A DNA stretch of 64,000 bases from Alphaproteobacteria bacterium. GTDB lineage: Bacteria; Pseudomonadota; Alphaproteobacteria; Micropepsales; Micropepsaceae. A program made the position numbers and the translations under genes. The DNA lies in the NCBI GenBank assembly GCA_025924715.1, contig JAICHV010000003.1:1-64000 (forward strand). Direction: 5' to 3'. Below the pieces are notes generated by a model. The model was not told the origin of the DNA, did not search any database, and saw nothing but the letters and a program-made list of their open reading frames with translations. This document shows, in pieces, positions 7,359 through 53,421 of this stretch (positions are counted from its first letter, which is position 1; each line of letters opens with the position of its first letter).

Positions 7359-9305
7359 CTATTCCGCCGCTGTCAGGCCCAACACATCCTTCCGGCGTGG
7401 CCTGGCGATGGGGGCGGTATGCACATCGCGCAAAAACTTGTCGAACATCCAGCACAGCCACAGCGTGCGGCTATGGTCGCTGAGGCCGCCGCGGTGCTGC
7501 TGCAGCAGAGACTTTATGTAGGGGATCTCAAAATCGCCGGATGCCGCCAACCCGTTTGCCGCGCCCAGATCGCGCTCGAAGGCAGCGCCCAGGGGCCCGC
7601 GAAACCAAGCGGCCAGCGGAACGGAAAAACCCTGTTTGGGCCGGGTGAGCAATTCCGCCGGCAGACATTTGGCGGCGAGGCGGCGCAGGACTTTCTTGGT
7701 CTGGCCGCGGTCCAATTTGCAGCCGCGCGGCAGATTGAGAGCCCACTGCACCAGATTGCCGTCCAGCATCGGCACCCGCACTTCCAGGCTATGCGCCATG
7801 GCGGTTCGGTCCACCTTGGTGAGAATGTCACCCGGCAGCCAGGTCTTGATGTCGACATATTGCGCTTTGGCGACGGCATCCTGGAACGGCGCCCGTGCGA
7901 AATGTGCCGCGATCGCATCGCGCGCGCGATAGCCTGACTGCGCCCGCCGCAACGCGGGGGAGAACAAGCGGCGCCGCTGCGCCGCGCCTGTCACCGCCAG
8001 ATTGGCGAAATAGCCGTCGACCGTGTCGCAGCTCAGCTCGTGAAAGGTCTGCCGCGCCCGCAAGGGCCGCGGCGCCCAATCAAGTTGCGGATACAGCGCC
8101 GCCAGGGCGCCGAAAAGCGGCCGGCGCAAGCCGGCGGGCAACAACTTGCGAAAATTCTCTTCCCGGGCGTGAAAGCCGTAGCGGCGGTAACCGGCGAACA
8201 GTTCATCGCCGCCATCGCCCGACAGCGCCACCGTCACATGGCGCCGCGCCAGGCCCATCAGACGAAAGGCCGGGATCGCCGAACTGTCGCCGAACGGCTC
8301 GCCGAACACGCGCGCTAGCGGCGCGGCCAGATCTTCCTCGTCACCGCACAGCGTCTCTTTGCGATGTTCGGCGCCATAGCGGCGCGCAACTTGGGCGGCC
8401 AAAGCGGTCTCGTCGAAGCGGGGATCGGAAAAGCCGATGGTGAAACAGTTCAGCGATGGCCCCGATTCTCGCGCCATCAACGCGGTGGTGACCCCTGAAT
8501 CGATGCCGCCTGATAGGAACGCGCCGATCGGCACATCGGACACCATCTGGGCCGCGACAGAGGCCGACAGCCGCTCTTCCAATTCCTGCACGAAATCGGT
8601 GTCACGGCCGGCCCGAAGCGGGGCGTCGCTGACGTCCCAATAGGATTCCAGGCGCGGCGCCGCGCCCCGCCGCAAGGTCAAACGATGCGCGGCCGGCAAT
8701 TTGGCGACATCGGCATAAATGGTGCGCGGCTCGACGATATAGCCCAGGGCAAAAAACTCCTCCGCCGCGCCCGGATCGATCCGCCGCCGCAAGGCGGGCA
8801 GCGCCAGCAGCCCTGCCATTTCCGAGGCAAAGGCAAAGCTGCCATCCGGCAGGGTGGTATAATAAAGCGGCTTTTCGCCCAGCCGGTCGCGCGCCAGGAA
8901 CAGCGTGCCCGCCTGTTCGTCCCACAGCGCGAAGGCGAACATGCCGTTCAGCCGCGTGACGCAGTCCTCGCCCCATTTCTTCCAGGCTTCCAGAATGACT
9001 TCGGTGTCGGAGCGGGTCTGGAAACGGTGGCCGCAGGCGGCCAATTCGGCTCTCAGCTCGGCGAAATTGTAGATCTCGCCATTGAAGGTGATGGTGAAAG
9101 CGCCGGTGGTATCTTTCATCGGCTGCGCGCCGGTGGACAGATCGATTACCGCCAGACGGCGATGGGCAAGGCCGAGGCCGGGCGCGGTAAAAAACCCTTC
9201 GCCGTCCGGACCACGATGGGCGATGGCATCGGCCATGGCTTGCAATTGCGCCGCGTCCGCCGGCCGGGCACCCACAGGATCGAACCAGCCGGCGATGCCG
9301 CACAT
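7359..9305 (-). CDS. XrtA-locus amidotransferase, asparagine synthase (glutamine-hydrolyzing) family
   Basis: 648 aa; MCGIAGWFDP N-terminal nucleophile Cys, FNGEIYNFAELR, SGGIDSGVTTALMAR (PP-loop), SGDGGDELFAGYRRY; adjacent to exosortase A. Confidence 0.93.
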   Translation of the reverse strand: MCGIAGWFDPVGARPADAAQLQAMADAIAHRGPDGEGFFTAPGLGLAHRRLAVIDLSTGAQPMKDTTGAFTITFNGEIYNFAELRAELAACGHRFQTRSDTEVILEAWKKWGEDCVTRLNGMFAFALWDEQAGTLFLARDRLGEKPLYYTTLPDGSFAFASEMAGLLALPALRRRIDPGAAEEFFALGYIVEPRTIYADVAKLPAAHRLTLRRGAAPRLESYWDVSDAPLRAGRDTDFVQELEERLSASVAAQMVSDVPIGAFLSGGIDSGVTTALMARESGPSLNCFTIGFSDPRFDETALAAQVARRYGAEHRKETLCGDEEDLAAPLARVFGEPFGDSSAIPAFRLMGLARRHVTVALSGDGGDELFAGYRRYGFHAREENFRKLLPAGLRRPLFGALAALYPQLDWAPRPLRARQTFHELSCDTVDGYFANLAVTGAAQRRRLFSPALRRAQSGYRARDAIAAHFARAPFQDAVAKAQYVDIKTWLPGDILTKVDRTAMAHSLEVRVPMLDGNLVQWALNLPRGCKLDRGQTKKVLRRLAAKCLPAELLTRPKQGFSVPLAAWFRGPLGAAFERDLGAANGLAASGDFEIPYIKSLLQQHRGGLSDHSRTLWLCWMFDKFLRDVHTAPIARPRRKDVLGLTAAE

Positions 9306-10810
9306 CAGGAACCATCCTTACCGGCAAGGCCGGACAAAACCCAGGACGCGGATTCCAGCTTTTTGCGCGCATCCTGCCGGCTGCCGGTGACCGGCACCGA
9401 TAGAGCGACCAGGCTTGCGCCGCCGTCGCCGCGCAGAAGATTGCGCAGGGCCATCCATTTCAGCGCGGTACCGCTGGTGGTGAAGCGGCCGTCCTTCCAA
9501 TAAGACCACCACACCAGCCGCGTCTCGCCGGCCGAGGACAGCAAAAATTCCTGGAAGGGCACCGCCTGATTGCTCACGTTTGGATATACGTCCGCGTGAG
9601 AGACCAGATTGTAGCGCTGCTCATCCCACAGCCGCTGCGGCGCCACCACCAGGGTATCGTCCTTGCCGGTGCCGGCGTAATAATCGACCAGCACATCGAC
9701 GGGGTCACCACCGGCCTGGCGCATCGAAAAACGAGTGCTCTTGTCGGCCGGCGGCAGATCGGGCTGCCAGGGGCTGGTGGCGGCGCCGACCTTCCAAGCG
9801 GCCCGCGCCGGCCGCGCCAGCACCGGCTCGCCGTGACGCATCAGGCTCTGCTGAGTCTGGGCCAAAGCCGGCGGCATGCAGGCCAGAAAAATCGCGGGGA
9901 TGGCCAGCCAGAGGCCGGAGCCGGTCTGTTTGGCGCGCAAAACCGGAGGCTGCTGCTCGGCCGGCACCTCGTCGCGATAACGGCCGGCGATGGCGAACAG
10001 CGCGAGCAGGATCAGGACCGAAAAACCCCAGCCATAGACAATGTGATCGGCGCCGGTGGCCAGGCGATTGTTGCTCCAATGCGCGATCAGCACGATCCCC
10101 AGCGCCCGGATGCCATTGGCGATCACGGGAATGACGATCGAGGCCGCCATGAAGAGCGCCATCTTATAAGGACGGCGAAAGGCGCAATAGGCAAAGACCG
10201 TACCCAGCACGATGGTGGCGATCAGGAAGCGCAAGCCGGCACAGGCTTCCGCCACCTCGAACGTGCCGTTCGCCAACTGGATCACATTGCCTTCGGTATA
10301 ATGCAAGATGCCAAGGAAGGTCAGGCCATGGGAGACGAAGGCGGTGGTCAGGCTTTGCAAGGGCGGCACCAGATATTGCCCCATCGGAACCAGGAAGAGC
10401 AGAAACAGACAGGGGAACAGGATGGTTCGCACCACACCGGGGCCCAGCAACAGCAGAAGCAAAGCCTCGAACTGGAGCATGACCGCGAGCTGCTCGGCTT
10501 CATTGATGGCGGCAGCCTTCCCCACCAGCCACAGCAGCGCCACGGGGATCATGATCCACATCGCCGAGGCGTAAAATTGCGGATGGGCTTTGGCCAAATA
10601 GCGGCGGCGCCGCCAAATCAGCCAAACGGAAATTGGAACGACCAGAAAGCAATGCGAATAGGTGGGAGAGATCCACCAGATCTGAACGGCGCGGGCAATA
10701 TCGCCCTGATAGGCGAAGGCCCATAAGATCATCGCCGCCGCCAGCAGGCCCAGATGCAGCGGCCAACGCGTGGCGCCATAGGCCGGCTGGGCGACGGCAC
10801 TACTCGACAC
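9305..10810 (-). CDS. xrtA: Exosortase A with C-terminal EpsI-type domain
   Basis: Multi-TM protein; FEVAEACAGLRFLIATIVLG (catalytic Cys) and VIANGIRALGIVLIAHWS (Arg/His) exosortase signatures; soluble C-terminal EpsI-like region. Confidence 0.93.
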   Translation of the reverse strand: MSSSAVAQPAYGATRWPLHLGLLAAAMILWAFAYQGDIARAVQIWWISPTYSHCFLVVPISVWLIWRRRRYLAKAHPQFYASAMWIMIPVALLWLVGKAAAINEAEQLAVMLQFEALLLLLLGPGVVRTILFPCLFLLFLVPMGQYLVPPLQSLTTAFVSHGLTFLGILHYTEGNVIQLANGTFEVAEACAGLRFLIATIVLGTVFAYCAFRRPYKMALFMAASIVIPVIANGIRALGIVLIAHWSNNRLATGADHIVYGWGFSVLILLALFAIAGRYRDEVPAEQQPPVLRAKQTGSGLWLAIPAIFLACMPPALAQTQQSLMRHGEPVLARPARAAWKVGAATSPWQPDLPPADKSTRFSMRQAGGDPVDVLVDYYAGTGKDDTLVVAPQRLWDEQRYNLVSHADVYPNVSNQAVPFQEFLLSSAGETRLVWWSYWKDGRFTTSGTALKWMALRNLLRGDGGASLVALSVPVTGSRQDARKKLESASWVLSGLAGKDGS

Positions 10811-33200: not shown

Positions 33201-34561
33201 TGGAACAAAAAACAGTGGTCGAACCAAAAAGCATTCTTCTGGTCGAAGACGATGACGGGCTGCGGCGGCAACTGGAATGGGCCCTGGCGCCGCGCCCCGT
33301 CCTGGCCTGCGCCAACCGCGTCGAGGCGATGAAGCGATTTCGTCTGGCGGAGAATTGCCATATCGCGATCATCGATCTGGGCCTGCCGCCGGACCGCGAT
33401 GGCGCCGGCGAAGGCCTGGCGCTGTTGTCCGAGATTCTGGCCTGCGAACCGCGCGCCAAGGTGATCGTGGTCAGCGGCAATGACGACCGCGCCAATGCGG
33501 TAAAGGCCGCCGGTCTGGGCGCTTTCGATTTCATCGCCAAGCCGGTCGATGTCGACCTTCTCACCCTGATCGTCACCCGGGCCGAACGCATGCATGCCCT
33601 GGAAGAAGAAAATTTCGTGCTGCGCGAATATACCAAATCGGCCACCCCCGGCATGATCTGCCGCTCGCCCCAGATGCTCGAGGTACAGCGCATGATCGAG
33701 CGGCTCGGCCCGCGCGAGGTCAGCGTGTTGATCCAGGGTGAAAGCGGCACCGGCAAGGAAGTGGTGGCCCGGCTGCTGCATCAATCCTCGCCCCGCCGCA
33801 ACGAGAAATTCATCGCCATCAATTGCGCCTCTATCCCGGAAAATCTTCTGGAAAGCGAATTGTTCGGCCATGAGCGGGGGGCCTTTACCGGCGCCTTTAA
33901 GCAAACACCGGGCAAATTCGAGCTTGCCAACAACGGCACCCTGTTCCTGGACGAAATCGGCGACATGCCGCTGCTGCTTCAGGCCAAGCTTCTGCGCTTC
34001 CTGCAAAGCCGCGAAATGGAGCGGGTGGGCGGACGGGCCACCATCCGTATCAATGTCCGCGTGATTTCGGCCACCAATCAAAGACTGGAGCAGCTGGTCG
34101 CCGAGCAGCGCTTCCGCGAGGACCTTTACTACCGCCTGAACGAGGTCTGCATCAGCCTTCCGCCGCTGCATATGCGCGAAGGCGATCAGACCATCCTGGC
34201 CCATCATTTCCTCAATCTCTGCAACAAAGCCAATGGACGGGCCATCCGCGGCTTCTCGCCCGACGCCTTGGCGGCCATTGCGTCGCATTCCTGGCCCGGC
34301 AATGTGCGCGAATTGGAAAACCGCGTGAAACGCGCGGTGGTGATGGCCGATGGGGCGCTGATTACCGCCGCCGATCTGGATCTTCCGGGCGGCAAACAGC
34401 AAACCCGCAGTCTCAATCTGAGAGCGGAAACCGAGAAACTCGAACGCATGCTGCTGGAGGAAGCCCTGGCCATTTCCGGCGGCAATATTTCGCAGGCGGC
34501 CAAGTTGATGGGAGTGAGCAGACCCTATGTCTATAATCTCAAACGCCAAGCGCAAATCTGA
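33197..34561 (+). CDS. prsR: Sigma-54-dependent response regulator PrsR
   Basis: Receiver [22 protein letters not shown]+ [49 protein letters not shown]-terminal [27 protein letters not shown]. Confidence 0.95.
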
Positions 34562-34562
34562 C

Positions 34563-37358
34563 ATGCCGCAATTCACCACTAGCACCGGCGCGGGCTGGCG
34601 AAAATCGCTTCTGCTGTCGCTGCTGCTGAGCGGCTTTTGCGTCGCACAGGCGCAGGCTGCTAAAAGCCTTCCGCCGCAATCGGGCGAAGTGCAGTCCCTG
34701 ATGAAACGCGCCGCCGATGCGGTGCGCGCCGGTGATTTGCGGGTCGCCGTCCTGCTGCTGAAAAATGCCGCCGCGGCGGCGCCCCAGGATGGACGGGTCG
34801 GCGCCGAGCTGGGAACCGTTCTGGTGATGCAAGGCGAAATGCCGGAGGCGGAGCGGGTGTTGCGCGATGCGCGCGCCCATGGCGCGCCGGACACCATGGC
34901 GCTGCCGCCGCTGTTCCAGGCGATGTTGTCCCGGCAGGAGGCGCAAGCCCTGCTCGATCAGTTCCCCGAACCCGGTGCCCAAGATAAGTCCGAACTGGCG
35001 TCGGATATCTGGCGGGCGCGGGCGCTTGCCCATTTTTCGACCGGCAATGCCGACGCAGCGCATAGCGAGATCGACAAGGCCTTGGCGCTTCGCCGCACGG
35101 CGCCCTTGCTGCTCGACAAGGCGCAGTTCGCGCTGGCCGCCGGCGACCGCGATCAAGCCACGGCCTATACCGATCAGGCGCTGAAAATGGCGCCCAAGGA
35201 TCTCAACGCCCTGATCACCAAGATCGGCTTGCTGGAAGCCAAAGGCGACTATGCCGCGGCCTCGGCCTATGCCGATCGCATGGTCGGCGCCGCGCCCAAC
35301 AGTCCCCTGCCGCGCATCCTGCGGATCGAGGTGCTGGGCCAGCTTCACCGCGATCTACCGGCCAAGAGCGATATCGACTGGTTGCTGCAACGCTCCCCGA
35401 ACTTGCCGATCGCGCTTTATGACCGGGCGATGCTGCGCCTGCGGGCGGGCGATATCAAAGGCGCCTGGGAAGTGGCTCAAGCCCTGCCGCCGGAATTCCT
35501 TCACACCATGCCGCAATTCGGCGTCCAGGTGGCGGCGATCGCGGAGGCTTCCGGCAATCGTCAGATCGCGGAAGCCGACCTGGAATCGGCGATTTCCTAT
35601 TTCCCCAAATATGAAGAGAGCCGCGTCCGCCTGGCCAGGATGCGGCTGGCCGACAAGAATCCGCAAAGCGCGCTTACTTTGCTGGATCCGATCAAAGCCA
35701 GCGCGGACCGGCGCGTGTCCATACTGATGGCGCAGGCCTATACAGCCACGGGCCAGACCGCCCAGGCAAAGGCGCTGCTTTCCAAGAACAAGGGCTCGCA
35801 GAGCAGTCCCGACTTGGTGCCGGTGTTAGCCCTGTTCCAATCGGGCAAGACCGAACAGGGCATCGCCCAGCTTGCGGCCATGCACCAGAAGGAGCCCAAA
35901 CGCGCCGATATCATGGGCCCACTGGTGGGCTTCCTGATTCAGAACGGGCGCGCGTCCGACGCCGCCCAAGCCGTTGGCAGCTTCGAAAAGGCGGGCGGCG
36001 ACGCCGCCATGACGGCTTTTTACCGGGGACAGGTTTTGGCGGCAAAGGGCGATTTCGATGGCGCGCAAGCGGCGCTGAGCACCACCCTGAAGCTGCGTCC
36101 GTCATTTCCGGCCGCGCTTTATTATCACGCCCAGTTGGCAGCCCTTCGCGGAGATTTCTCCGCTGCCAATAGCGATCTTGACGCGATGCTGCGGCTCGAT
36201 CCTTCCGATACCCAGGCACTGGGCAAGAAAGCGCAACTTGCGGCGCATGCCGGCCGCGACGCCGAAGCGGAAGCGCTGTATCAGCGCGCCGTGACGGGCG
36301 CGCCGGCCGATCCGGGGGCGCGCCTGGCCTTGGCGGATTTCTACTTGTCCCACCGCCAATATGCCAAGGCCGAGGCGGCGGCTGCGCCGCTGGCCGCGGC
36401 CCATAATGCGGCGGCGTTGTCCCTGGTCATTCGCAGCCAGGCCACGCGCGGCGATCTGGGTGCCGCAACCCGCAGTGCCAGGGCGCTCGCCGCCGCCTAT
36501 CCCAAATCGGCCGAGGCCCAGGTGACTTTGGCCGCGGTGTTGGAGACCGCCAAGAATACCAACGAAGCCGCCGCGGCCTATGCCCAGGCCATGCGCGATG
36601 ACCCCGGTCAGATCGCCGCCTATCGCGGCGCGATCCGCATTTCGCTGGCCGCGGGCAAAACCGACAAGGCGATCGAAATGGCGCGCGCTTTCGCCAAGAG
36701 CCATGGCGGCCCTGCCGCCAGCAAGCTTGTCGCCGATACTTTGGCGGCCGCCAAGCAGCCCGATGCGGCAAAAAAGGAACTGGCCTCCAGCCTGGCGCGG
36801 CAGCCCGACAGCGGCTTGGTACTGGCGCTGGCCGATCTTGAGGCCAAGTCAGACCGTAACGCCGGCAAGCGCCGGCTCTCCGACTGGGTCGAGAAACATC
36901 CCGAGGACACCGGCGTCACCAGCCAATATGCCACCATGCTGATTACCGATGGCGATATGGCGGGCGCGCGCGGTCAGTTGGAAAAACTGGTGCAGCGCGA
37001 GCCCTATAACGCATCGGCCCTCAACGATCTGGCCTGGAGCCTGCAGAAGACCGATCTGACCCGCGCCGTGGCCCTGGCGAGCAAAGCGGCACGGCTCTCT
37101 CCGGGCTCGGCGGAGATTTTGGACACAATGGGTTGGCTGAAATGGCAGCAGCATGACCGCAAGGGTGCGCTCGATGCCTTGCGCCAAGCCCATAGCCTCA
37201 AGCCCAATGAACCGGAAATCGGCTATCACTTCGCGGTGGCGCTGGATGGTTCGGGTGACCGGCAGGGTGCGCGCCAGGCTTTGCAGCCGATCCTCAATTC
37301 CAATGTGCACTTCGAGAGCCAGGCTGACGCCCGCAAGCTCGCCAGCAGTTGGCGCTGA
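34563..37358 (+). CDS. prsT: PEP-CTERM system TPR-repeat protein PrsT
   Basis: About 930 aa TPR repeats after signal peptide (MPQFTTSTGAGWRKSLLLSLLLSGFCVAQAQA); directly downstream of prsR. Confidence 0.88.
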   Translation: MPQFTTSTGAGWRKSLLLSLLLSGFCVAQAQAAKSLPPQSGEVQSLMKRAADAVRAGDLRVAVLLLKNAAAAAPQDGRVGAELGTVLVMQGEMPEAERVLRDARAHGAPDTMALPPLFQAMLSRQEAQALLDQFPEPGAQDKSELASDIWRARALAHFSTGNADAAHSEIDKALALRRTAPLLLDKAQFALAAGDRDQATAYTDQALKMAPKDLNALITKIGLLEAKGDYAAASAYADRMVGAAPNSPLPRILRIEVLGQLHRDLPAKSDIDWLLQRSPNLPIALYDRAMLRLRAGDIKGAWEVAQALPPEFLHTMPQFGVQVAAIAEASGNRQIAEADLESAISYFPKYEESRVRLARMRLADKNPQSALTLLDPIKASADRRVSILMAQAYTATGQTAQAKALLSKNKGSQSSPDLVPVLALFQSGKTEQGIAQLAAMHQKEPKRADIMGPLVGFLIQNGRASDAAQAVGSFEKAGGDAAMTAFYRGQVLAAKGDFDGAQAALSTTLKLRPSFPAALYYHAQLAALRGDFSAANSDLDAMLRLDPSDTQALGKKAQLAAHAGRDAEAEALYQRAVTGAPADPGARLALADFYLSHRQYAKAEAAAAPLAAAHNAAALSLVIRSQATRGDLGAATRSARALAAAYPKSAEAQVTLAAVLETAKNTNEAAAAYAQAMRDDPGQIAAYRGAIRISLAAGKTDKAIEMARAFAKSHGGPAASKLVADTLAAAKQPDAAKKELASSLARQPDSGLVLALADLEAKSDRNAGKRRLSDWVEKHPEDTGVTSQYATMLITDGDMAGARGQLEKLVQREPYNASALNDLAWSLQKTDLTRAVALASKAARLSPGSAEILDTMGWLKWQQHDRKGALDALRQAHSLKPNEPEIGYHFAVALDGSGDRQGARQALQPILNSNVHFESQADARKLASSWR

Positions 37359-43198: not shown

Positions 43199-43234
43199 AA
43201 AAGGCGGTTCCATTTATGGAACCGCCTTTTTTTT
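43199..43234 (+). terminator. Strong rho-independent terminator of the PEP-CTERM gene
   Basis: AAAAGGCGGTTCCA-TTTA-TGGAACCGCCTTTT followed by T tract. Confidence 0.93.
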
Positions 43235-43517
43235 ACCCGCTCCGACAGTCGCTTGTAAATCTTCAGCAAGAAATCATTGCTACCATGGAGATGTTGCGAA
43301 GTTCCCTGCGAGGCGTGCACCGAGGATGGCGAAGCTCTTCGAATTCCGGCCAAACGACAGAGCACTCGCGCCGATCACCCCAAGCCTCAGCTATTTCAAC
43401 TCCCGCCCCGGGCACAAATTTGCCCAGATTGCATGTCGATACTCTGCGCGTCGGAGGGATCGACGCGGTTGGCGGGAGTGCGCCAGGGTCGGTGTTTGCG
43501 CCAGCCAGACAGCCGAA

Positions 43518-44280
43518 AATGCTCGCAAAGGGGGCCAATAATATGCAGGTGCAGATGCAGGCCGCATCGCCGTCATGGCGCGGCGCCCAGGAAAGCCTTC
43601 TGGATCGATACAATCAGGACTTCCGCTGCGTGACCGCGGACACGCCCGATCTTCTCCGCCAGGCTTATGAAACCCGCTACCAGGTCTATTGCGTCGAAAA
43701 CCCGTTCGAGAACCCCGAGGAACATCGCGATGGACGCGAAACCGATCCGCTCGACGCGGTCTCCGCCCATAGCGTATTGATCGCGGGCAGCGAAGTGATC
43801 GGAACGGTTCGCCTGGTTCTTCCCCACCCCCGGCTGCCGTTCAGTTTCGCTGTCAAGCGGATCATCAGCCATTTCGGGACGAGCTTGCCCATTCCGGTCA
43901 TGTCGACGACGGAAGTTTCCCGCTTCAGCATTTCCAAGTCGCGCCGCAGCATCGGCAATACCGTCCCCCTGCACCGCGAGCGCCCGCCAGCCATGCGCCC
44001 GGCCGAACCGCTGATGAGCCTGGGCCTGATCCAGGGACTGGTGCGGATGAGCGGGCAAAACCGCATCACCCATTGGTGCGCCGTGATGGAACCCAAACTG
44101 CTGCGGATGCTGGCCGCCATGGGCATTCATTTTCAGCCCGTAGGACCGCTGATCGAATATCATGGCTTGCGGCAATTATGTTATTGCCGTGTCGCCAGCG
44201 TCCTTGAAAATGTCCGGCTGGTACGTCCAAGCTTTTGGGAAATCATCACCGACGGGGGAGCTTTGGTCCCCACGGACTGA
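43518..44280 (+). CDS. PEP-CTERM/exosortase system-associated acyltransferase (N-acyl amino acid synthase-like, autoinducer-synthase fold)
   Basis: LLRQAYETRYQVYCVENPFENPEEHRDGRETDPLDAVSAHSVLIAGSEVIGTVRLVLP; C-terminal HWCAVMEPKLLRMLAAMGIHFQPVGPLIEYHGLRQ. Exact start uncertain (43518 or 43542). Confidence 0.88.
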
Positions 44281-44292
44281 GGTGGGGGCCGC

Positions 44293-46167
44293 ATGGCCGA
44301 ACCGACTTACTTTCCGTTCTTGAAAGCCTTCGACCGCAACATCGGTTGGCTGACGGAATGGGAGCAATTGGCTCTCAAGGGAAAACGGGTGGCGATCGCC
44401 GGCATGGGCGGCGTCGGCGGATTTCATCTCCTCACCCTGGCGCGGCTGGGCGTGGGCGGTTTTTCCATCGCCGATTTCGACCGTTTTGATGTCGAGAATT
44501 TCAATCGCCAGGTGGGCGCCAATATGGGCACCATCGGGCGGCCCAAGGTCGAGGTGCTGGCGGAGATGGCCAGGGCGATCAATCCCGACCTGGATCTGAG
44601 GCTCTTTGCGGAAGGCGTGCAGGACAGCGATATCGATCAATTCCTGGATGGCGCCGATCTGTTCATCGACGGCTTCGATTTTTTTGTCCTGGGCATCCGC
44701 CGCAAAGTCTTCGCCCGCTGCCAGGAACTGGGAATCCCGGCCCTGACGGCGGCGCCGATCGGGATGGGCGTCGGCTTCGTCGCTTTCACCCCCGGCGGCA
44801 TGGGCTTTGAAGAGTATTTCCGCTTCGAGGGCCGCTCCGAGTTACGGCAATATGTCCATTTTCTGCTAGGCATGGCGCCAAAGGCCATCCATCGGCACTA
44901 TTTGGCGGATCCCAGCCGGCTGGATTTCGCCCGCAAGAAAGCGCCCTCCACCATCGTCGGGGTGCAGCTCGCCGCCAGTGTGACCGCCGCGGCCGCCGTC
45001 AAGCTGTTGCTGGCGCGCGGCAGCGTCGAGCCAGCGCCGCACCATCATCATTATGACGCCTATCTGGCCAAGCTGGTGACGACCAATTTGCGCTGGGGCA
45101 ATGCCGGGCCGCTGCAGCGGTTCAAAGCCGATATGGCGGAAAAGGCCTTCCAACGCTTGGCGCAAATGCCGCCGCAACCTCTGCCGGTCCGCCCCGCCTC
45201 GACGGTGGAAGAGATCATCGATGTCGCGCGCTGGACTCCCAGCGGCGACAATTCCCAGCCCTGGCGGTTTCGCCGTACCGGCGATGATGCCTATGTCATC
45301 CGCATCGCCGACAAAAGCGCCGAGAATGTCTACGAATATGCCGGCGGCCAGCCCACGCTGCTCTCGGCCGGCATGCTGCTGGCGAGCCTCGACATCGCGG
45401 CCTCGGCGGCCGCGATGCGGCTGGACTGGTCTTATAGCGGACACGGCCCGGGCGGTTGGGAGATTGCCATCCGGTTTTTGCCCGAACCGGACCGGCGCAT
45501 CGATCCGCTCTACAGCTATATTCCGCTGCGCTCGGTCGACCGCCGTCCTTATCGCTTGACGCGCTTGCTTGCGGCGCAAAAGGACATGCTTGCTGCCAGC
45601 CTGGGACCGGACTTGGCGATCGCCTGGTATGAGACCACAGGCGCCCGGCTGGCGATGACCCGGCTGAATGCGGCGGCCACCGCCATTCGCTTGCGGATAC
45701 CCGAGACCTTCGAGATTCACAAAAACCTGATCGACTGGAATCGCAGCCGCAGTCCCAGCGGCATCCCGGCCGGAGCGCTAGGGCTCGACCGCGGCACCCT
45801 GGCCGTCATGCGCTGGGGCATGCAGAGCTGGCCGCGCATGAATCGCCTTAACCAAACGGCGGGAACTTTCGGGGCCTCGCTGCAGATGGATTATCTCCCG
45901 GGCCTGTTCAGCGCCGCCCATTTCAGCATCCGCACCCGGCTCTCGGCGGAACACCGCGAGCGGGACTTGCTGAACGCCGGCGCGGCGCTGCAGCGCTTCT
46001 GGCTGAATGCCACCAGGCTCGGTTTGGCGATGCAGCCCAGCCTGGCGCCCCTGGCTTTTGCCTATTGGGGGCGGCATGCGCTGCCTTTCACCACCGACCT
46101 GAAGATGCGCGTCGCAGCGGCCCGGCTGGAGCGCGAGACCGACAGCGTCTTGGCCGGCGGCGGCTAG
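44293..46167 (+). CDS. ThiF/E1-like adenylyltransferase fused to nitroreductase-like domain
   Basis: KRVAIAGMGGVGGFHLLTLARLGVGGFSIADFDRFDVENFNRQVGANMGTIGRPKVEVL (E1 ATP site); IIDVARWTPSGDNSQPWRFRR (nitroreductase FMN site). Confidence 0.88.
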   Translation: MAEPTYFPFLKAFDRNIGWLTEWEQLALKGKRVAIAGMGGVGGFHLLTLARLGVGGFSIADFDRFDVENFNRQVGANMGTIGRPKVEVLAEMARAINPDLDLRLFAEGVQDSDIDQFLDGADLFIDGFDFFVLGIRRKVFARCQELGIPALTAAPIGMGVGFVAFTPGGMGFEEYFRFEGRSELRQYVHFLLGMAPKAIHRHYLADPSRLDFARKKAPSTIVGVQLAASVTAAAAVKLLLARGSVEPAPHHHHYDAYLAKLVTTNLRWGNAGPLQRFKADMAEKAFQRLAQMPPQPLPVRPASTVEEIIDVARWTPSGDNSQPWRFRRTGDDAYVIRIADKSAENVYEYAGGQPTLLSAGMLLASLDIAASAAAMRLDWSYSGHGPGGWEIAIRFLPEPDRRIDPLYSYIPLRSVDRRPYRLTRLLAAQKDMLAASLGPDLAIAWYETTGARLAMTRLNAAATAIRLRIPETFEIHKNLIDWNRSRSPSGIPAGALGLDRGTLAVMRWGMQSWPRMNRLNQTAGTFGASLQMDYLPGLFSAAHFSIRTRLSAEHRERDLLNAGAALQRFWLNATRLGLAMQPSLAPLAFAYWGRHALPFTTDLKMRVAAARLERETDSVLAGGG

Positions 46168-46302
46168 ATCACGATCTTTGCCGGGCGGATCGGCGTGCCG
46201 AAACCCCGCCCCGGCTTTTGCCGTTCCACACGGTTGCCGTTTGGGGAACTATTCGAACCTGTGGCGGGTTAGCTCTCTCGATTTCGAAAGATCGGGTGGA
46301 GT

Positions 46303-47283
46303 ATGGCCAATATTCTCGTCACCGGCGGCGCCGGCTATATCGGCAGTCACATGACCTATGCCCTGGTGGACCGGGGACATAGTGTAACCGTTGTTGACAA
46401 CCTCTCCACCGGAGTTCGCGGCCTGGTTGCGCCGCAAGCCGAATTCGTCGAAGGCGATATTGGCGACGAAACCTTGGTGCGCCCCCTCCTGCGTCATCGC
46501 AATATCGAGGCGGTGATCCATTTCGCGGGCTCGGTGGTGGTGCCGGACTCGGTCGAACAGCCGCTGCGCTATTACAACAACAACACGATGAAATCCCTCA
46601 CCCTGATCGATGCCTGCGTGCAGGAAGGCGTGGGCAAGTTCATCTTCTCTTCCACCGCGGCAGTTTATGGCATGGGCGAAGACCATCCGGCCTGCGAAAG
46701 CGATGAAAAATCGCCGATCAACCCCTATGGCCGCTCCAAATTGATGACCGAATGGATTTTGGAGGATGCCGCCAAGGCCTATGATTTCCGCTATGTGGCG
46801 CTGCGCTATTTCAACGTCGCGGGCGCCGATCCCCAAGGGCGCACCGGCCAATCGACGCCGCGCGCCACCCATTTGATCAAAAAGGCCTGCCAGGTGGCGC
46901 TGCAGCGCGCCCCCGAATTGGAGATTTTCGGCGGCGACTTTCCCACCCGCGACGGCACGGGGATCCGCGATTATATTCATGTCAGCGATTTGATCGAATG
47001 CCATTTGCTGGCCTTGGATCATCTCATCAAGGGCGGCGAACCCAAGGTCCTCAATTGCGGTTATGGCCAGGGCTTCTCGGTGCGCGAAGTGGTCGAGGCG
47101 GTCTCGCGCCAGATCGGCCGGCCGCTTCCGGTCCGCATTGCGCCGCGCCGCGCCGGCGATCCGGCGCAGTTGATCGCCAACCCCAGCCGCATTCGCTCGG
47201 AATTGGGCTGGCGTCCCGCCCATGCCGATCTGTCGGACATTGTCGCCAGCGCCTATGCCTGGGAACAGCGCCAGAACGCCTAG
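46303..47283 (+). CDS. galE: UDP-glucose 4-epimerase
   Basis: ILVTGGAGYIGSHMTYALVDRGHSVTVVDNLSTG, YGRSKLMTEWIL, RDGTGIRDYIHVSDL. Confidence 0.95.
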   Translation: MANILVTGGAGYIGSHMTYALVDRGHSVTVVDNLSTGVRGLVAPQAEFVEGDIGDETLVRPLLRHRNIEAVIHFAGSVVVPDSVEQPLRYYNNNTMKSLTLIDACVQEGVGKFIFSSTAAVYGMGEDHPACESDEKSPINPYGRSKLMTEWILEDAAKAYDFRYVALRYFNVAGADPQGRTGQSTPRATHLIKKACQVALQRAPELEIFGGDFPTRDGTGIRDYIHVSDLIECHLLALDHLIKGGEPKVLNCGYGQGFSVREVVEAVSRQIGRPLPVRIAPRRAGDPAQLIANPSRIRSELGWRPAHADLSDIVASAYAWEQRQNA

Positions 47284-51620: not shown

Positions 51621-52859
51621 TCAGGTGCCTTTGCGCAGCACCGCGTAAAGACCCATCACCTCGTCGGTATATTCCCAGCGCAAAAAGGCCTCATTCAGGT
51701 ACATCACGGTAAGGCCGGCCGCCTTGGCGACCTCCCGCACATGGTCCGGGTGGTGGGTATAGCGGCCGGTATCGGTGAGGAAAAAGGGGTATTTCTCTCC
51801 CCGCTCCATCGACAGGACGAAGACCCCGCCCGGGACCAGGCGCCGCGCCGCCGCCTGGGTGATGGGTCCCAGATCGCCAAAATAGATCAGGCAGTCGCAG
51901 GACATGATCAGGTCGAATGTCTCGTCATGACTGTCCAGCCATTGGGTGATTTCCCCCTGCTCCAGCCGGTCATAAATTCCCCGCGTGCCGGCCCTCTCCA
52001 GCATTTCCGGCGACAGATCCACCCCCGTAAGCGAGGCGGCCCGCGGACGGATCATCATGCCGCTGAGACCCGAGCCGCAGCCCAGATCCAGCACCTTCAT
52101 ATCCTTCTTCTCGCCGATCACCGTTTTTAGCGCGTCTTCGATGCGCTGCGGCCCCGCATATTTGAGGTCGTCCACCATCCGCTTTTCATAGGTTTCGGCG
52201 AAGCTTTTGTAGATCTGGAGAATGGCGCGGTCCGAGGCCCGGGACGGCGGCGCATCGTCGCGCAGCGCGATCAAAAGATGTTCGATCTCGCCGTCATCCT
52301 GGTTGGCGTCGAAATATTTCTGATAGGCGATGCGGGCCTCGTCGCGCTTGCCCAGGCATTGGGCGATCTCGCCCAGCTTGTACCAGGCGTCCCAATTCTC
52401 CGGCTCCATCTCCACCACTTTCCTGGCGCAGAGATAGCCGGTCTGGATATTGCCCAAGGCGCCGAGCCGCTTGGCCAGAGTCTGCAATTCGGCGGCAGAG
52501 AGCTCCTGGCGGGTGGCGGATGGACTGCCTTCCCAGACCAGAAGCCCGGCCTTGATTCCCTCTTCGACCCAGCGCGGGATTTCGCCGGTTTGACCGTCCG
52601 CCAGCAGCGGCCCGGCCACTTCGCAGACTTGGTCGACGCTGCGGCTGCCGTCACACAATTCGGTGAGGAAGGCCGCCATGGGATTGAGCTGGTGCAGATT
52701 GTCCTGCACCGGATCATAGGCGACGTAACCGTCCTCGACCGGCGACAACAGTATGACCGGATTCACCATGGGATTGGGCATGAAGCGCTCTTCAAAAGGA
52801 AGCGGCCACATGCTCCAGGAATGGAACACGCGGCCGCCCGTCGCCGGCTGAAAAATCAA
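51621..52859 (-). CDS. PqqD-like (RRE) domain + TPR + SAM methyltransferase fusion protein
   Basis: N-terminal VNPVILLSPVEDGYVAYDPVQDNLHQLNPMAAFLTELCDGSRSVDQV (PqqD-like); ETYEKRMVDDLKYAGPQRIEDAL...MKVLDLGCGSGLSGMMIRPRAASLTGVDLSPEML (methyltransferase motif I). Confidence 0.8.
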   Translation of the reverse strand: MIFQPATGGRVFHSWSMWPLPFEERFMPNPMVNPVILLSPVEDGYVAYDPVQDNLHQLNPMAAFLTELCDGSRSVDQVCEVAGPLLADGQTGEIPRWVEEGIKAGLLVWEGSPSATRQELSAAELQTLAKRLGALGNIQTGYLCARKVVEMEPENWDAWYKLGEIAQCLGKRDEARIAYQKYFDANQDDGEIEHLLIALRDDAPPSRASDRAILQIYKSFAETYEKRMVDDLKYAGPQRIEDALKTVIGEKKDMKVLDLGCGSGLSGMMIRPRAASLTGVDLSPEMLERAGTRGIYDRLEQGEITQWLDSHDETFDLIMSCDCLIYFGDLGPITQAAARRLVPGGVFVLSMERGEKYPFFLTDTGRYTHHPDHVREVAKAAGLTVMYLNEAFLRWEYTDEVMGLYAVLRKGT

Positions 52860-52884
52860 CCGGCGCAGATAGCATTAAGGCCTA

Positions 52885-53121
52885 TTATTCTGCGGCCTTC
52901 TTCTTGCGCGGCGCGGCGCACTTGCCGGTCTTCTTGCTGACGACCAGGCCGTCATCGCACTTGCCGCCGGCGCCGGGATCTTCGCCTTCCTTCTGCGCCA
53001 TCGCCTGGGTGGTCATCAGCGGAATCGCCGCAACGGCGGTGCCGATGAACAGGGTCTTGAAGAAGCCACGACGGTCGTTGCTGACATGGGCCAAAGCCTT
53101 GTCCAAAACGTTCTGAGACAT
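52885..53121 (-). CDS. Small TAT-signal-bearing Cys-containing peptide (candidate substrate of the adjacent PqqD-methyltransferase)
   Basis: MSQNVLDKALAHVSNDRRGFFKTLFIGTAVAAIPLMTTQAMAQKEGEDPGAGGKCDDGLVVSKKTGKCAAPRKKKAAE; RBS aggagg upstream. Confidence 0.75.
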   Translation of the reverse strand: MSQNVLDKALAHVSNDRRGFFKTLFIGTAVAAIPLMTTQAMAQKEGEDPGAGGKCDDGLVVSKKTGKCAAPRKKKAAE

Positions 53122-53151
53122 GAAAAAACCTCCTGAGTTGAAACGACAAAT

Positions 53152-53198
53152 TGTCCAAGCGGACATCTGTCCAGACGGACAATCTATCCAAGCGGACG
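53152..53198. promoter_or_regulatory. Triple dyad operator-like array upstream of the small peptide gene
   Basis: TGTCCAAGCGGACA (53152), TGTCCAGACGGACA (53168), TATCCAAGCGGACG (53185), spaced 16-17 bp. Confidence 0.7.
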
Positions 53199-53421
53199 CT
53201 ATGTAGGTGACTGGTCCCCCATCCACCCGTCGAAGACGGTAACGGTATTTGCTTCAGGCGAGAAGGCTGAAAACGTCACAGACGTCACCGCCGGCTCTCC
53301 ATAATTCTTACATTATCGTAATGGAAGAAATTCGCCCGCGAACCGGCACGGGCGCCGAATCGCTCGCTTTTGTACGAAAGCTCCAAGACGACCCCGGCGC
53401 CTTCGCATATGCAGCATGGAA

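Follow-up and report, generated by a model that had tools for sequence, protein, structure and literature searches.

A PEP-CTERM-associated acyltransferase and its neighbouring ThiF-flavin oxidase fusion as a probable oxazolone synthetase

What does an exosortase-associated acyltransferase make together with a neighbouring ThiF-nitroreductase fusion? This question is raised by two adjacent genes, ORF1 and ORF2, in the window, i.e., the whole 64,000-nucleotide stretch of contig JAICHV010000003.1 analysed here (Table 1). The initial annotation of this DNA proposed an N-acyl amino acid as the product of the acyltransferase, activation of its carboxylate by the E1 (ThiF) domain, and a redox step by the nitroreductase domain. 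This three-step order is supported in outline and is the mechanism published for this architecture (PMC10404671, PMC12856293); the proposal did not reach the points that the redox step would be a desaturation that requires O2 and is catalysed by an Acg-like flavin oxidase and that the product would be an oxazolone. The pair is likely to be an oxazolone synthetase of the OxzA/OxzB kind that is associated with the PEP-CTERM system. Because the chemistry has already been published, the core of this finding is not new.

The window contains a full XrtA/PEP-CTERM locus with genes for an amidotransferase, exosortase A, glycosyltransferases, a deacetylase, a chain-length determinant, a tyrosine kinase, PrsK, and PrsT, and it also encodes polysaccharide export and FemAB proteins. 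The presence of exosortase A makes the host an XrtA genome, and a PEP-CTERM substrate does lie beside the pair, as had been claimed. A few kb downstream of the pair, we noticed a cytochrome P450 gene (49674-51071, + strand) that matched named NCBIfam families but did not reach the cut-off of any of them. In addition, a gene for a PqqD-TPR-methyltransferase protein (51621-52859, - strand) adjoins that of a small protein that looks secreted and has cysteine in its C-terminus (52885-53226, - strand), and this - strand segment (51621-53226) is possibly a small peptide-modification cassette.

Table 1. Positions in the window of the acyltransferase-ThiF pair, its parts, and context genes
Feature	Position	Strand	Evidence
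Exosortase A (context)	9305..10810	-	TIGR03109, 287 bits (cut-off 208)
PrsT, XrtA/PEP-CTERM TPR protein (context)	34527..37358	+	TIGR02917, 404 bits
PEP-CTERM protein directly upstream of the pair; homologues at the equivalent position of L003 and L004	42331..43185	+	PF07589
TIGR03694 acyltransferase, predicted NAS (ORF1)	43543..44280	+	TIGR03694, 192 bits; AHL-synthase/FeeM fold
ThiF/E1-nitroreductase (flavin oxidase) fusion to in-frame TAG, 624 aa (ORF2)	44293..46167	+	Pfam ThiF and Nitroreductase; NF006077/PRK08223, 385 bits; ThiF and Acg folds
ThiF adenylation/cyclase domain, residues 15-260 (R15, GMGGVG, D61, R72, K85, D126, D129)	44335..45072	+	Pfam; MoeB alignment; invariance in homologues
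Acg-like flavin-dependent oxidase domain (nitroreductase fold), to TAG	45175..46164	+	Pfam; 2ymv, E 8e-8 (profile) and E 1.4e-11 (fold)
In-frame TAG cutting the oxidase domain before its conserved tail	46165..46167	+	Homologue profile match spans it; relatives open here
Conserved oxidase C-terminal tail, readable in frame behind TAG (ITIFAGRIGVPKPRPGFCRSTRLPFGELFEPVAG)	46168..46269	+	58-59% protein identity to L003 and L004; invariant residues
galE-type UDP-glucose 4-epimerase downstream; pathway role not implied	46303..47283	+	TIGR01179, 430 bits; recurs in 8 loci

The longest frame of ORF1 extends from 43216 to 44280 on the + strand, with the TIGR03694 domain in its C-terminal 220 aa, and a start at 43216 is probably an over-extension. 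The in-frame ATGs are at 43519 and 43543 (the initial annotation had placed the start at 43518, off by one); because a Shine-Dalgarno-like AAAGGGGG precedes only the ATG at 43543, translation probably starts there, with 43519 as the alternative. ORF1 scores well above the cut-off of 112 bits for TIGR03694, "PEP-CTERM/exosortase system-associated acyltransferase," which we take to be the N-acyl amino acid synthase family (NasY) of Craig, Cherry, and Brady (2011). The exosortase system after which the family is named is present in the host, as the window encodes exosortase A together with PrsK, PrsT, and further XrtA proteins. The AlphaFold model of ORF1 (pLDDT 86.5) resembles the AHL synthases LasI and BjaI as well as the N-acyl amino acid synthase FeeM, in agreement with the autoinducer-synthase fold attributed to it earlier. 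Based on family and model, ORF1 is predicted to be an N-acyl amino acid synthase (NAS). The host genome contains a second TIGR03694 acyltransferase (L068:9363-10094; contig C22:28895-29554; 248 bits) that is 47% identical to the first; the 19.5 kb inspected around it did not contain a ThiF partner.

ORF2 follows ORF1 after a gap of exactly 12 bp. Pfam identified a ThiF domain (1.5e-34) followed by a Nitroreductase domain (5e-12), and the ThiF half exceeds the curated cut-off of 266 bits for NF006077/PRK08223; that model covers ThiF alone (296 positions), whereas the window protein adds an oxidase domain. The ATP-site motifs are all in place (GMGGVG at 37, DFD at 61, and NRQ at 71), and D129, R72, and K85 occupy the places of MoeB D130, R73, and K86. 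These three residues as well as R15, the glycines of GMGGVG, D61, D63, N69, and D126 are invariant across all aligned homologues. By sequence, the best solved relatives of the ThiF domain are MoeB, ThiF, and TcdA. In the ORF2 model (pLDDT 82), the first half resembles ThiF/MoeB/MccB-type enzymes and the second half the Acg homologue of Mycobacterium smegmatis (2ymv), on which the profile search agrees. In the fold comparisons for the two ORFs, AclA (9egb) was the second-best match, and a literature search on it found nothing. C143 is the sole cysteine in the 624 residues, and zinc-binding CxxC pairs are absent. In two homologues (L009 and L010), this position is Ala, so that C143 is rejected as the thioester residue of an E1 and, more generally, as a catalytic cysteine or thiol; for the same reason, the Cys-to-Ala mutation proposed in the initial annotation would be uninformative. 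That annotation was otherwise right about ORF2 in respect of its length, spacing, domain fusion, ATP-site motifs, and single cysteine; it missed that the stop codon is premature.

A profile built from ORF2 homologues runs through the stop, matching positions 4-653 of 663 with one TAG inside. The 34 codons behind the TAG retain the similarity to relatives listed in Table 1, and F629, R632, G634, R644, and R647 encoded there are invariant among 12 aligned sequences; residues 627-636 form a strand in the ORF2 model. The window copy is the only one in which the oxidase domain is incomplete, with the TAG preceding the invariant tail residues. We note that the host genome is assembled in 153 contigs with 92.9% completeness and 5.8% contamination; the TAG is a recent nonsense mutation, an assembly error, or a read-through codon. 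It deprives the oxidase domain of conserved sequence, and the desaturase of the window copy may therefore be damaged if the TAG is neither a sequencing error nor bypassed by read-through. In the same-genus relatives G333 and G348, the frame is open across this position; the TAG therefore weakens the case for the desaturase of the window copy and not for the kind of system.

Three features expected of an oxazolone synthetase of the OxzAB kind, i.e., an adjacent NAS gene, an intact ThiF ATP site, and a fused Acg-like oxidase domain, are found in the window pair. As presented in later accounts (PMC10404671, PMC12856293), de Rond, Asay, and Moore (2021) described OxzA and the ThiF-nitroreductase fusion OxzB of Pseudoalteromonas rubra as an oxazolone synthetase. 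On these descriptions, OxzA/OxzB resemble the window pair in that a NAS gene adjoins the fusion gene and that an amino acid is acylated, cyclised, and desaturated; the premature TAG is peculiar to the window fusion. Mycobacterium tuberculosis has the tyrazolone pathway TyzA/TyzB/TyzC (PMC10404671), and M. tuberculosis and relatives have the tryptazolone pathway TrzA/TrzS (Rv1356c/Rv1355c) (PMC12856293). The common sequence is that the acyltransferase forms an N-acyl amino acid, ThiF with ATP converts it to the oxazolone, and the flavin oxidase desaturates the latter with O2 (PMC10404671, PMC12856293). In TrzS, D217A stops cyclisation while R540A and Q651A impair desaturation, and cyclisation precedes desaturation (PMC12856293). 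TrzA/TrzS, like the window pair, combine a NAS with a ThiF-oxidase fusion that would cyclise and then desaturate, and the Asp essential for cyclisation in TrzS is the counterpart in role of D129 (MoeB D130); the two pairs differ in phylum and synthase family. ORF2 scores 136 bits against the Rv1355c/TrzS family NF005901 (cut-off 476) and is thus a cousin and not an orthologue of TrzS. TyzA/TyzB/TyzC have the same three activities as those proposed here, but as three separate proteins, of which TyzA is FeeM-like with low sequence identity.

For the window pair itself, we infer product, substrate, and role as follows. The TIGR03694 acyltransferase would attach a fatty-acyl chain to a probably aromatic amino acid at its amino group. 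The ThiF domain would cyclise the N-acyl amino acid with ATP to an oxazolone, in which the Acg-like domain, using O2, would desaturate the alpha-beta bond to give a dehydro-acyl-oxazolone. As suggested by genome context, this lipid may serve the XrtA/PEP-CTERM/exopolysaccharide surface programme. Our literature search found no measured product for members with a TIGR03694 synthase.

Do the two genes belong together? The initial annotation had named a lack of consistent neighbourhood co-occurrence as one of three outcomes that would refute it, and the result here was positive. A scan of public genomes identified ORF2 homologues on 11 contigs (45-66% identity for the ten full-length ones), and an acyltransferase gene adjoins the homologue on all 11; an N-terminal extension of the L005 homologue matched nothing in Pfam or NCBIfam and is probably an over-extended ORF rather than an extra domain. 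Among 399 evenly sampled Pseudomonadota genomes, the ThiF family is present in 16 and TIGR03694 in 32, with TIGR03694 in 14 of the 16 ThiF genomes (Fisher p = 2e-15) and in all cases within about 4.3 kb. The remaining two (G651 and G701) at first counted as exceptions but have a FeeM-type synthase beside ThiF, so that a NAS gene of one of two different families lies within about 4.3 kb of ThiF in 16/16 genomes. These genomes are not independent, as nine fall in one family-level group, although eight such groups are represented. In the host's order, all six ThiF genomes have TIGR03694, which in G320 is on another contig. Gene orders and strands vary (upstream, downstream, divergent, and convergent). 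Single inheritance of an acyltransferase-ThiF block was rejected: the acyltransferase tree requires 11 changes of linkage (of which at least 8 are forced by supported branches) compared with 17 for shuffled labels. Acyltransferases in short loci were labelled on the basis of whole-genome ThiF absence or of being paralogues on other contigs. The coupling of ThiF and NAS is not due to chance. Near a more divergent ThiF in G033, which at 265 bits just misses the PRK08223 cut-off (266), neither synthase family is represented. A ThiF relative with 43% identity on a Bdellovibrio plasmid (L108:7977-8852) lies beside genes for a 388-aa protein and an ABC transporter.

A fused form of this coupling is found on a plasmid of Nitratidesulfovibrio vulgaris, where a single 989-aa protein (L107:8062-11031) consists of FeeM (E 5e-44), ThiF, and oxidase domains; its gene is flanked by an XrtA exopolysaccharide operon on one side and by two PEP-CTERM genes on the other. 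This fusion places the synthase, cyclase, and oxidase in a single pathway and links all three to the exosortase setting. The protein (PRK14852/NF011425) shares ThiF, oxidase, and PEP-CTERM setting with the window pair but differs in that its own NAS is fused N-terminally and belongs to the FeeM family; a TIGR03694 assignment of this N-terminus was discarded, as the acyltransferase profile barely scored and Pfam gave FeeM.

ThiF is linked to exosortases as well. An exosortase is present in 14 of the 16 ThiF genomes vs 73 of all 399 (p = 1e-9) and lies within 50 kb of ThiF in 10 genomes. Among genomes with the acyltransferase, 13 of 23 with an exosortase have ThiF compared with one of nine without. 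PrsT-like TPR genes lie near ThiF in 14 of 34 loci, and galE and the genes for PEP-CTERM proteins and UDP-sugar dehydrogenases are recurrent neighbours as well. We also observed in gammaproteobacterial-type ThiF loci a patatin-like phospholipase gene in 5 (L051, L055, L056, L058, and L062) and a trypsin-like peptidase gene in 10 (L054-L063). The oxidase is fused to ThiF (in the window and several relatives), encoded separately beside it (L047-L049, L051-L053, L058, and L062), or absent; ThiF genes without an oxidase lie beside the acyltransferase in L054-L065 and other loci. A whole-genome profile search (E <= 1e-10) detected no oxidase of the ORF2 kind in 9 of the 16 ThiF genomes, and desaturation of an oxazolone is therefore not the common denominator. 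If the published chemistry holds, oxidase-less loci would close the ring without desaturating it. Both the ThiF-exosortase link and the absence of the oxidase in these genomes are apparently unreported so far; the main texts of PMC10404671, PMC12856293, and PMC12479983 do not mention PEP-CTERM or exosortases. The PEP-CTERM-linked N-acyl amino acid synthases (NasY) share the genetic link to PEP-CTERM/exosortase genes, and the accessible portions of the accounts on them (PMC11072679, PMC4897644, PMC8776678) do not mention a ThiF/oxidase tailoring partner. In Methylomonas LW13, knockout of a PEP-CTERM N-acyl amino acid synthase abolishes a polysaccharide band that complementation restores (PMC11072679); this and the genome context suggest that the product of the window pair may be tied to exopolysaccharide/PEP-CTERM biology.

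Could ORF2 be an ordinary sulfur-carrier or cofactor E1 of the MoeB/ThiF type that neighbours the acyltransferase by chance? General E1/ThiF homology and the identity of its best solved relatives would fit, but we rejected this reading as extremely improbable: the protein lacks zinc cysteines and its single cysteine varies among homologues, inspection of neighbouring ORFs revealed no recognisable ThiS/MoaD-like gene, and the coupling to NAS is essentially universal, with the domains fused in one species. Moreover, contig C57 of the host genome carries a further ThiF/MoeB-like gene. A different end product deserves more weight. In this alternative, the pair makes an open N-acyl 2,3-dehydro-amino acid of the thalassotalic, kyonggic, or stieleriacine type, and the oxazolone is only an intermediate that enables the oxidase to act and is then hydrolysed. 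Oxazolones are acid-labile (PMC12856293), and a 2025 study found that N-acyl dehydrotyrosine producers carry NAS, ThiF, and nitroreductase clusters, while a related species making only saturated compounds lacks ThiF and nitroreductase (PMC12479983). Producers of the stieleriacine type have this gene trio as well, yet no oxazolone has been seen in them (PMC12479983), which counts against an oxazolone as the product. Since the oxazolone itself was recovered in all three reconstituted systems, and since hydrolysis would leave the many ThiF loci without an oxidase unexplained, we regard an open end product as unlikely.

The oxidase-less genomes speak for another alternative, a lipid-modification ligase: the N-acyl amino acid, once activated by ThiF, would be handed to an exopolysaccharide sugar, a PEP-CTERM protein, or another lipid, and the oxidase would be optional. 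Saturated oxazolones act as reactive acyl donors, which is the basis for reading the oxidase-less loci in terms of transfer. The strong exosortase and exopolysaccharide context and the polysaccharide band lost in the Methylomonas knockout point the same way. Yet, no acceptor or transferase was identified, the context gives association and not transfer, and the window protein and its relatives have a fused oxidase, as do OxzB and TrzS, both of which yield free oxazolones; for the window pair, we therefore judge transfer to be quite unlikely and favour the oxazolone synthetase. As a long shot for exosortase bacteria at large, this ThiF family might serve to activate lipids: with the NAS, it would make a saturated, reactive acyl-oxazolone, in effect an activated N-acyl amino acid, that is passed to a surface polysaccharide or PEP-CTERM protein, with the flavin oxidase, present in some lineages only, converting the acyl-oxazolone to a stable free lipid. 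If this were true, exosortase-associated acyltransferases would gain a role in lipid-modifying the cell surface.

That many exosortase-associated acyltransferases come with a probable oxazolone synthetase, in numerous lineages and gene arrangements, points to a likely class of product for them, and the very consistent placement beside PEP-CTERM/exosortase genes hints at a use of such lipids by this poorly understood surface system. For exosortase genomes with NAS and ThiF but no oxidase, the new question is what product is made when the ring is closed and not desaturated.
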